IMG/VR virus record: IMGVR_UViG_3300014926_000062
Coordinates: 1-27,062 of that record
Length of the DNA stretch: 27,062 bases
Strand: one strand, 5' to 3'
DNA from: a virus
Below, in pieces: positions 24,330-26,686 of this stretch; positions within the stretch are counted from its first letter, which is position 1; each line of letters opens with the position of its first letter. The translations under genes and the position numbers were made by a program. A model generated the notes under the pieces. It did not search any database, was not told the origin of the DNA, and saw nothing but the letters and a program-made list of their open reading frames with translations.

Positions 24330-25614
24330 AAAAAATAAACACGATCTTGAACAAGAATTTAAGGAGGAAATAGTCCAAGTTGATAACCGGCTAATTGATT
24401 CACCTGATTATCTTTTACAAAATTACATCATGCTTCACGGTACAAATTGCGTTTGGGATATTTCAACAGGAGCAATGCTAAAAGTTGAACATCTTAAAAT
24501 GTCATTTCCTATTTCTTATAAAATATGGCAATCGCAACCATCACGAAAAATTATTCCTGCAACTGATCTTGTTTTTTCACCAAAAGGCGTTGGTAAAGAT
24601 CAGATAAATATGTTTACAGGGATAAAAATGCGCCCAAGTTATGGGAACGGGTATAAAGCATGGAATATGCACTTAATGGATATTTGTGATGATGACATGA
24701 AGTCGGTCAAGTGGATAACATCGTGGTTTGCCTATCAATTGCAAAATTTAGGTTCTAAAATGCGCACGTCACTTGTTATTTATGGAGACGAGGGAACAGG
24801 GAAGAATATTTTAGTAAACGCCGTAAAAGAGATTTACGGGCAATATGGCGATGAAATAGGGCAATCGCAAATTGAATCACAATTTAATGCGTGGGCATCG
24901 TGTAAATTATTTCTTGTGGCTAACGAAGTTGTATCAAGGCGCGAACGCAGGCACATTAAAGGAAAGTTAAAACAGCTAATAACAGAGCCTTTTGTTTATA
25001 TTAATCAAAAATCGATGCCTGAACGTGTTGAGCCTAATTATGCAAACTTTGTATTTTTATCTAATGAAGATGTGCCAATTGATGCGAGCGAAAAAGATCG
25101 CAGGTTTAACTTTACAGAAGTTAAATTAAAACCGCACATGACACACGATCATTTTACGCAGTTAAAATCAGACATTGTTATTTCAGATTTGTATGGTTAT
25201 TTGCTCAGTTATAATTATGGTGATTTTAACGAGCATACAAAGCCGCTATTAAACGAAGCAAAACAAAAGGTGACAGATGCCAACCTTCCAAGTGAACAAG
25301 CGTTCCTGCGCGATTGGCTAGCAAATAAAACAATGTTTCCAGTTGAGACAGTATCAGCAACGACACTTTATTGGGCTTATAAATCTTGGGCAGCAGAAAA
25401 TGGTGAGACTTATACCTGCACACAAACGACATTTGGTAGAGTTGTTGGTCGAATTGACCACATAGTGAAAGCGTTTGTTTCAATCAAATTTACATCGAGA
25501 AAAATAACAGTTTACTTTATGGATAAGAATGTTGTAACGTCAAGCATAGACGACACCACCACCAAAAAATTCGATGACATGGTTTTACAGCAAAAATTGA
25601 AATATAGGCTCTAA
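24307..25614 (+). CDS. Primase-helicase C-terminal type SF3 ATPase (DUF5906-like)
   Basis: The 435-residue protein has Walker A GDEGTGKN at about 160-167, a Walker B-like LFLVANEV near 201-208 and a sensor-like NFVFLSNED. This is the SF3 helicase core of DUF5906 primase-helicases. The N-terminal 130 residues lack a recognisable primase active site, so it may be helicase only. The C-terminal 90 residues (LYWAYKSWAAENGE, TFGRVVGRI) resemble the winged-helix tail of this family. I chose ATG 24307, preceded by GGAG, over the in-frame GTG at 24280. An iteron-like array begins three bases after its stop, so the protein may be the initiator that binds there. Confidence 0.88.
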   Translation: MTSVTMPKKNKHDLEQEFKEEIVQVDNRLIDSPDYLLQNYIMLHGTNCVWDISTGAMLKVEHLKMSFPISYKIWQSQPSRKIIPATDLVFSPKGVGKDQINMFTGIKMRPSYGNGYKAWNMHLMDICDDDMKSVKWITSWFAYQLQNLGSKMRTSLVIYGDEGTGKNILVNAVKEIYGQYGDEIGQSQIESQFNAWASCKLFLVANEVVSRRERRHIKGKLKQLITEPFVYINQKSMPERVEPNYANFVFLSNEDVPIDASEKDRRFNFTEVKLKPHMTHDHFTQLKSDIVISDLYGYLLSYNYGDFNEHTKPLLNEAKQKVTDANLPSEQAFLRDWLANKTMFPVETVSATTLYWAYKSWAAENGETYTCTQTTFGRVVGRIDHIVKAFVSIKFTSRKITVYFMDKNVVTSSIDDTTTKKFDDMVLQQKLKYRL

Positions 25615-25616
25615 TT

Positions 25617-25850
25617 TGTAACAGTTACAGCGGTTTTTGTAACAGTTAAAGCAAACCCCTACAAAAATAACTTTATAAGATTCAACGTCTTGTAACAGTT
25701 GTAACAGTTGTAGGGGTTTTTTTATGTTTTTCACCTAAATTATGATAAAACTTGTTTTTTATAAATAACTATTACAACTATTACAAGTCTATAATATATA
25801 AAGAAAAAACTACTACAAAAACTACTACAAAACTATTACAAACTGTTACA
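25617..25850. repeat. Array of ten 10-bp iteron-like motifs (TGTAACAGTT / AACTDYTACA)
   Basis: TGTAACAGTT occurs exactly at 25617, 25638, 25691 and 25700. On the opposite orientation AACTATTACA occurs at 25767, 25776 and 25831, AACTACTACA at 25808 and 25820, and AACTGTTACA (the exact reverse complement of the first motif) at 25841. Some copies are 9 bases apart and others 10-12, close to one helical turn. The block is AT-rich and directly follows the primase-helicase gene. This is what an initiator-binding origin would look like. A regulator operator array is the alternative. Confidence 0.8.
25653..25723 (+). terminator. Terminator-like hairpin with a 43-base loop, after the replication operon
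   Basis: AAACCCCTACAA (25653-25664) is perfectly complementary to TTGTAGGGGTTT (25708-25719), a 12-bp stem, and T residues run to 25723. The loop is long (43 bases) and holds two iteron copies, so a protein bound there at the DNA level could affect this site. It most likely ends the helicase to primase transcript. Confidence 0.7.
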
Positions 25851-25890
25851 ACAAAAAAGCGCACAAATTGCGTAAATAATAAAATAATTA

Positions 25891-25918
25891 TTTACATATT
25901 GGTTAAACAGATTATAAT
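25891..25918 (+). promoter_or_regulatory. Strong sigma70-type promoter
   Basis: TTTACA at 25891-25896, a 16-base spacer and a perfect TATAAT at 25913-25918. A transcript would start near 25925, right at the beginning of the hairpin-rich non-coding stretch and upstream of the small gene at 26462. It lies just after the iteron array. Confidence 0.75.
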
Positions 25919-25924
25919 TACTGC

Positions 25925-26445
25925 ACGTTTTAAATTTGCTTGAGCAGAAGTGTTAAATTTAAAACTCACCTTTTAGCCTCTTTTAACTTATCCTGCTCGG
26001 TTAGTTACTAGGGGTTTTTTAATTTTTACCCCAACCAATCCAGAAATCACTTTTTAATATTGGCGATTTATCAATGACTGAGTTGGTTGGGTTTAGCTAT
26101 GAATAAAACGTTGTCGTATAAGACTTGTAGTACACTTACCCTATGTGGTTTGAAATATGGGTGCAAATCCCATCAACGTTTTATTGATAGTTGAGAACCA
26201 GCTTACAGCGTTATTGCAACGTGATATGCGTAAGCACTATTATGACAGCTTGGAAAGACAAGCACTTGTCTGCTTTTGGTGTTGCCCGTGTTCTTGCACG
26301 GGTGATGCGCTTTTAGTTATGAAGAATTAAACCCTAACGCGTGTCCTCGGGCACGAAAAAAAGACGGGAGCCAGTTTACTAGCTGTTTTGCTTGCAACGC
26401 TTCTGCGGCTAGGTTGGGGTTTAATTCTTGATGGTTTTAATAAAC
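25925..26445 (+). ncRNA. Candidate large structured non-coding RNA or long structured leader
   Basis: About 520 bases without a convincing protein gene, behind a strong promoter and less AT-rich than the DNA before it. Complementary segments include GAGCAG/CTGCTC (25942/25993), CCCAACCAA/TTGGTTGGG (26030/26083), a 17-bp stem with one mismatch (26097-26113/26174-26190), GCTTAC/GTAAGC (26201/26230), AGACAA/TTGTCT (26256/26266), CCCGTG/CACGGG (26285/26297), AAGAATTAAACCC/GGGTTTAATTCTT (26322/26417) and CGTGTC/GGCACG with a CTCG tetraloop (26340/26350). ACCCCAACC (26028) can also pair with GGTTGGGGT (26412), which would close the whole domain. Phage-associated large RNAs such as GOLLD and ROOL are known, but I cannot match a family from memory. 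It may also be the 5' leader of the next genes. Confidence 0.5.
26097..26190 (+). repeat. Long inverted repeat enclosing a tRNA-like arm
   Basis: CTATGAATAAAACGTTG (26097-26113) pairs with CAACGTTTTATTGATAG (26174-26190) with one mismatch. Directly next to the 3' strand lies a 5-bp stem and 7-base loop, ATGGG-TGCAAAT-CCCAT (26157-26173), in the geometry of a tRNA T-arm; the loop differs from TTCAAAT by one base. A D-arm-like GTAT/GTAC pair follows the 5' strand. The anticodon arm does not form well, so this is not called as a tRNA. It may be a tRNA-like domain within a larger RNA or a decayed tRNA. Confidence 0.65.
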
Positions 26446-26461
26446 AGGAACGAGAATAATA

Positions 26462-26686
26462 ATGAAAAACACACTTACAGATTTAAACAATCACCTATTT
26501 GCCCAAATGGAACGATTAAGCGAAGAATCGCTAAATCTTGAACAACTCGCTTTTGAAGCAGAACGCTCAAAAAGTTTAACGATTATTGCCCGCACAATTG
26601 TCGATAACGCGCGTTTAGTATTAGATGCTCAAACACGCATCAATGACATTCCAGAACGCAAAGAATTGCCTGCTATTTTGAAATGA
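26462..26686 (+). CDS. Small conserved phage protein upstream of HNH/packaging genes (74 aa)
   Basis: The 74-residue helical protein (MKNTLTDLNNHLFAQMERLS, then AERSKSLTIIARTIVDNARL) matches in pattern a family of small phage and prophage proteins usually found just before an HNH endonuclease and the terminase genes. Its function is not known to me. AGGAACGAG (26447-26455) provides a ribosome site. Its stop overlaps the next ATG. Its presence suggests the packaging genes begin just beyond the window. Confidence 0.75.
   Translation: MKNTLTDLNNHLFAQMERLSEESLNLEQLAFEAERSKSLTIIARTIVDNARLVLDAQTRINDIPERKELPAILK

Follow-up and report, generated by a model that had tools for sequence, protein, structure and literature searches.

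A predicted late-operon leader containing recurrent RNA modules and exchangeable payloads in an uncultured virus

Positions 25925-26445 of the window (the whole stretch analysed here, the 27,062-base record of an uncultured virus) appear, from promoter prediction and synteny, to be the untranslated leader of a late (packaging) operon. The modules of this leader seem, on sequence matches, to recur in hundreds of other phages, lambda and P1 included. The region is probably a late leader of a modular RNA type that is common to many phages and whose payloads are swapped. The M1, H1, handle and A/B/C modules set out below have no match in Rfam 15, no description of them was found there or in open-access papers, and a BLAST search of cultured phages with the whole region gave no match.

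Genomic setting, promoter and early hairpins

The leader is preceded by a DUF5906 primase-helicase gene that ends at 25614; seven IMG/VR loci encode this primase. The first gene 3' of the leader is a phrog_2044 gene (26462-26686, + strand) and the next, which begins at 26683, encodes an HNH endonuclease; tail genes lie at the start of the window. The label 'RNA polymerase beta subunit' carried by phrog_2044 is doubtful for a product of 74 amino acids. Directly 3' of the primase gene, at 25615-25860, clustered TTGTAACAGTT / ACTATTACAA direct and inverted repeats are iteron-like and possibly represent a replication origin.

These genes also occur in L006, a near relative, where ParB-like/methyltransferase, TerS, TerL and portal genes come after them, and the gene order in L004 is PhoH, HNH, TerL, portal. 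Because HNH, terminase and portal genes come next in the relatives, the region is read as the leader of a packaging and structural operon. The possibility raised in the first-pass annotation of a leader for the packaging genes is borne out by the HNH, methyltransferase, TerS, TerL and portal genes downstream in relatives. By prediction and synteny, a promoter and terminator stand on the upstream side and packaging genes on the downstream side.

The sigma-70-type promoter TTTACA-N16-TATAAT, which had been placed with its end at 25918, was confirmed at 25891-25918 (+ strand) with 11 of 12 consensus positions matched. It is retained in the relatives L003-L005, and L008 has a diverged promoter-like stretch in a similar place. 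Since weaker promoter-like matches are as common in shuffled sequences, the promoter is treated as a prediction only. Two hairpins follow on the + strand, both obtained by folding and both 100% identical in L003, L004 and L005. The first (25927-25965) is 94% identical in L008. Complementarity between its loop, GAGCAG, and the CUGCUC within the following hairpin's loop would possibly allow the two to form kissing loops. The second hairpin (25975-26016) is terminator-like, running into a U-rich tract that ends at 26027, and lies approximately 50-90 nt 3' of the presumed start. It carries a compensating change in L008 and was not among the matches of the terminator scan.

Structure of the leader

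The 521 bases after the promoter fold with -169.6 kcal/mol, giving z-scores against shuffles of -5.98 for the + strand and -3.63 for the - strand. The earlier description of the region as hairpin-rich and free of a convincing protein gene holds in both parts: every stem then named is present, and the 57-aa open reading frame at 26157-26330 covers a stretch that is replaced wholesale in relatives.

The H1 module (26030-26091, + strand) contains a recurrent core, CAG-AAAUC...GAUUUAUCAAUnnCUG, between the two strands of an outer stem. A payload cassette follows (26096-26191, + strand), in which the handle CUAUGAAUAAAACGUUG / CAACGUUUUAUUGAUAG surrounds a tRNA-like payload. The handle arms, at 26096-26113 and 26174-26191, form a 17-nt inverted repeat (26097-26113/26174-26190) and include an A strand (26097-26103) and a B strand (26185-26191). 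The payload (26106-26182, + strand) was missed in the earlier reading and is called by both ARAGORN, as tRNA-His with anticodon ATG, and Rfam, as tRNA with 30.6 bits (gathering threshold 29); a faster whole-window Rfam scan did not report it. Its T-arm is AUGGG-UGCAAAU-CCCAU. The acceptor stem runs on into the 17-nt handle, and the cloverleaf is not favoured in free folding.

The B strand (UGAUAGU) and a C strand (ACUAUUA, 26236-26242) form a variant B:C module by folding (26185-26242, + strand), which encloses a hairpin at 26201-26235; A is an alternative partner for B. The M1 hairpin, UGACA-GCUUG-GAAAGA-CAAGC-A, is placed immediately afterwards (26243-26264, + strand) and is defined by recurrence and covariation. 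The B:C stem, the A:B handle and the UGACA hairpin of an A/B/C module are all found in the window. The canonical AGGCUGAU/AUCAGC kissing-loop hairpins (searched as AGGCUGAU and AGWUCAGYA), which occur at the equivalent locus in L005, L006 and L008, are missing from the window.

Two further + strand elements were identified by folding. A 13-pair hairpin (26279-26308) followed by GCTTTT is terminator-like. The second handle hairpin (26317-26434, z -5.96) is formed by a 20-nt inverted repeat, AUGAAGAAUUAAACCC / GGGUUUAAUUCUUGAU (stem 26319-26338/26413-26432), around the tetraloop hairpin CGUGUC(CUCG)GGCACG at 26340-26355 and further stems. An element GUGUCCUC...CAC...GAAAAA...GAG with possible pseudoknot pairing is present in L003, L024 and L106 and degenerate in the window at 26340-26400; a pattern written for it matched one locus and was dropped.

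A stem between 26028 and 26420 had been proposed to close the whole region. The stem itself (26028-26041/26407-26420) exists, with 12 of 14 pairs in the window and 11 of 14 in L003 and L004. Neither L005 nor L008 has a counterpart, and it fails as a conserved global closure. A local stem, 26030-26043/26078-26091, competes with it and is the one that is conserved.

Recurrence and covariation of the modules

The M1 consensus, UGACA-(5 bp)-GAAAGA-(5 bp)-A, is found at more than 200 phage and prophage loci. The window 18-mer CAGCTTGGAAAGACAAGC matches more than 120 IMG/VR stretches, where approximately one would be expected by chance on our own estimate. The flanking UGA and A of the search string are 92-98% conserved across 92 distinct contexts, and no conservation was found beyond them. 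A pattern that left the stem free gave about 50 sites in 39 records, against one for a control read backwards. A variant pattern gave 108 stretches in bacterial genome contigs, in which the stems pair (G-U included) with one exception. When the stem is left free, all five pairs form in 176 of 186 distinct contexts, most of which were first found by patterns that fix a pairing stem; ten further stem types from outside such patterns pair too. Across 31 distinct hairpins 97.4% of cells are paired and the covariation score is 0.649 vs 0.235 for shuffled sequences, such shuffle-based scores being inflated by the relatedness of the sequences.

M1 is mostly intergenic, and the downstream gene is usually on the same strand. 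No constant protein partner was found nearby among terminase, DNA polymerase, PhoH, HNH and primase. Copies of M1 precede tRNAs and mRNA starts, adjoin hammerheads or, in L020, follow one another in tandem; M1 also occurs ahead of mRNA leaders and true tRNAs that have no payload cassette. In the crAss-like phage cr272_1 (L139 2569-2641 and 3918-3991) hammerheads adjoin M1-type hairpins, one with 73 bits and the second below threshold. A hammerhead-like sequence, likewise below threshold, adjoins an M1-type hairpin in Acinetobacter phage Alexa (L138 1311-1390). In two tRNA-Leu-like arrays (L118 1-1700, L083 900-1600) the acceptor and T arms are nearly constant and the anticodon parts very variable and often non-standard, with M1-type hairpins between some of the units.

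The H1 core is found in 84 IMG/VR stretches, and the H1 outer stems are of at least four types, unrelated yet complementary. Both A/B/C loops, GCUGAU and AUCAGC, which are complementary and were both fixed by the search pattern, occur at suitable spacing in more than 120 IMG/VR stretches. Of 58 non-redundant copies, 42 pair B with C at eight or more of the nine positions, compared with 6.4 for shuffled partners. In 50 aligned B:C copies from other phages there are 149 double-sided changes vs 48 in shuffles, and slid controls collapse; two-sided changes affect all nine B:C pairs and three of the four pairs of hairpin 1. A:B stems of at least 15 pairs are present in 18 of 42 copies (1.4 in controls). 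Because B pairs with A in these long stems, A could be a competitor of C for pairing with B. Compensatory changes among homologues, which the first-pass annotation had proposed as a check, are on record for M1 and B:C, as judged against shuffles.

Canonical A/B/C copies, whose covariation is very strong, lie in P1 at the tRNA locus and in lambda, HK75 and CUS-3 in the late leader; E. coli prophages have a module at the equivalent late place. In Erwinia phage phiEt88 M1 lies behind a Q-like gene. The elements behind M1 recur with different letters both there and in E. coli prophages, in the order A (CACAAC), payload hairpin, B (GUUGUGGUG), GCGCAGGCUGAUGCGC, a variable part, GCCGGAGAUCAGCACCGGC and C (CACCACAAC).

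Exchange of payloads

Between the window and L003, L004 and L005, M1 can be aligned over all 23 bases (96-100% identity). The flanks of the handle are 94-100% identical in L003-L005, yet the payloads inside are unrelated. Nothing in these three or in L008 corresponds to the tRNA-like payload; each has another payload or module instead. The L117 payload is a homologue of that in the window, and the tRNA call there has a different anticodon.

Among the collected handle hairpins certain payload types recur, with lengths of about 50 to 190 bases. A T-arm is present in 10 of 69 (control 0.4%), the window payload and its L117 homologue included, the 69 containing some reverse-strand or chance entries. 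On this count, and in spite of the low control, the idea that every payload is tRNA-based was rejected. tRNA mimicry is not general: the window score is barely above threshold, and most of the collected hairpins are without the arm.

Alternative explanations

A late leader that carries RNA payloads is the favoured explanation, with RNA-processing signals and put-like antitermination as live rivals. The first of these has perhaps a one-in-four standing in our judgement. On this reading 5' ends would be labelled by M1 and the handles, so that tRNAs and RNA payloads are cut out of a long transcript by RNases or by ribozymes nearby. It fits the position of M1 a few bases 5' of tRNA 5' ends in many arrays, and also before mRNA starts, the hammerheads that adjoin M1 in cr272_1 and Alexa, and the use of cis cleavage by phage tRNA arrays, as seen for theta ribozymes (PMC10879173). 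Against this, nothing is conserved upstream of M1 beyond UGACA, and a single M1 copy per genome is common. Hammerhead and HDV-like ribozyme models of Rfam gave no match in the window region.

Rather unlikely is processive antitermination of the put kind, in which the modules would act in cis on the polymerase for readthrough of the early terminator and the late operon. The leader does sit behind a terminator-like hairpin and is strongly structured, and the E. coli copies begin right after tR' and are also present in an early leader. However, a fixed polymerase contact hardly explains the swapping of payloads. The early leaders of HK022, the type phage for put, contain neither M1 nor the kissing-loop motifs and share no hairpin. 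In HK75 the annotated end of tR' coincides with the start of the modules, which begin after the terminator and not before it, and M1 is found within tRNA arrays too.

It is improbable that the region is recombination debris without RNA function, made up of conserved boundaries that promote exchange and a decayed tRNA. The annotation of CUS-3 calls neighbouring stretches of this type boundary sequence, and payloads are indeed exchanged; but helices are kept by compensatory changes while their letters change completely, and homologous recombination needs conservation of sequence, not of pairing. A single large ornate RNA of the GOLLD/ROOL type closed by 26028/26420, as first proposed, fits the size, the phage origin and the embedded tRNA-like part (tRNAs can sit in the GOLLD linker; PMC12286853) and is largely refuted and very improbable, since tRNA is the sole Rfam match in the region at E up to 10, GOLLD and ROOL included in the search, the closing stem is lost in L005 and L008, and the region is instead a chain of independent, exchangeable modules that also occur singly elsewhere.

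Proposed mechanism

In the payload-carrying late leader, transcription from 25918 onward would first meet the terminator-like hairpin, which may attenuate it. The RNA beyond would consist of a chain of modules, namely H1, the handle with its tRNA-like payload (A-payload-B), the B:C hairpin, M1 and the second handle hairpin, each predicted to fold independently, with A and C perhaps competing for B. The handles and M1 would be the constant parts, and payloads would move between phages by recombination. The functional cargo may be the payloads themselves, which would most likely be stable RNA domains set free or exposed late in infection and in some phages could act as tRNA mimics or decoys. Protection of the long untranslated RNA against Rho and RNases may be a further effect of its dense structure.

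More tentatively, and with less than an even chance, tailed phages may possess a general RNA cassette system of constant handles and exchangeable payloads that act in trans. If so, it would span lambda, P1 and uncultured freshwater and gut phages, with handles placed in a late leader or tRNA locus and payloads such as anti-defence tRNA mimics. Rapid payload swaps among near-identical phages suggest selection for variety, as in phage-host conflict. Structured RNAs of this type are unannotated in the best-studied phages, lambda and P1, and in hundreds more, and the role of the lambdoid late leader, an old question, is now directly testable in laboratory strains.

Comparison with known systems

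GOLLD and ROOL are likewise large structured phage RNAs near tRNAs; the window RNA differs from them as a modular chain without conserved global closure or a model match. Theta ribozymes and RAGATH hammerheads are small phage RNAs beside tRNAs, and hammerheads adjoin M1 in two phages; M1 and the handles differ in matching no ribozyme model. The put RNA of HK022 is also a phage leader RNA of stem-loops; it differs in that it acts early, has a fixed sequence (PMC9378689) and shares no hairpin with the modules. The EcOnc/AgvB and Pas prophage sRNAs come from the lambdoid Q/PR' moron region (PMC4104026, PMC13192938). These are short, bind Hfq and have their own terminators, and the window gave no Rfam match to them; Pas and AgvB were set aside.

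The P1 locus between tRNA-Thr and tRNA-Met differs from the window in that A/B/C lies inside a tRNA array, after two tRNAs, and the packaging genes are not adjacent; it shares tandem A/B/C units, some with a T-arm. At least four such units extend from tRNA-Thr to tciA (L289 1930-2830) and are unannotated in this record.

The terminator-like hairpin at 25975-26016 is placed as the lambdoid tR' is relative to pR'. No described function for the lambda tR'-S stretch was found in open-access papers. In the lambda late leader (L473 388-545) B and C pair perfectly over 9 bp, with an A strand that would compete. Its tR'-S stretch (NC_001416, about 44787-44944) differs from the window in its payload and has no M1 in the part scanned, but shares CACAAC, a payload hairpin, GUUGUGCUG and CAGCACAAC directly after the terminator.
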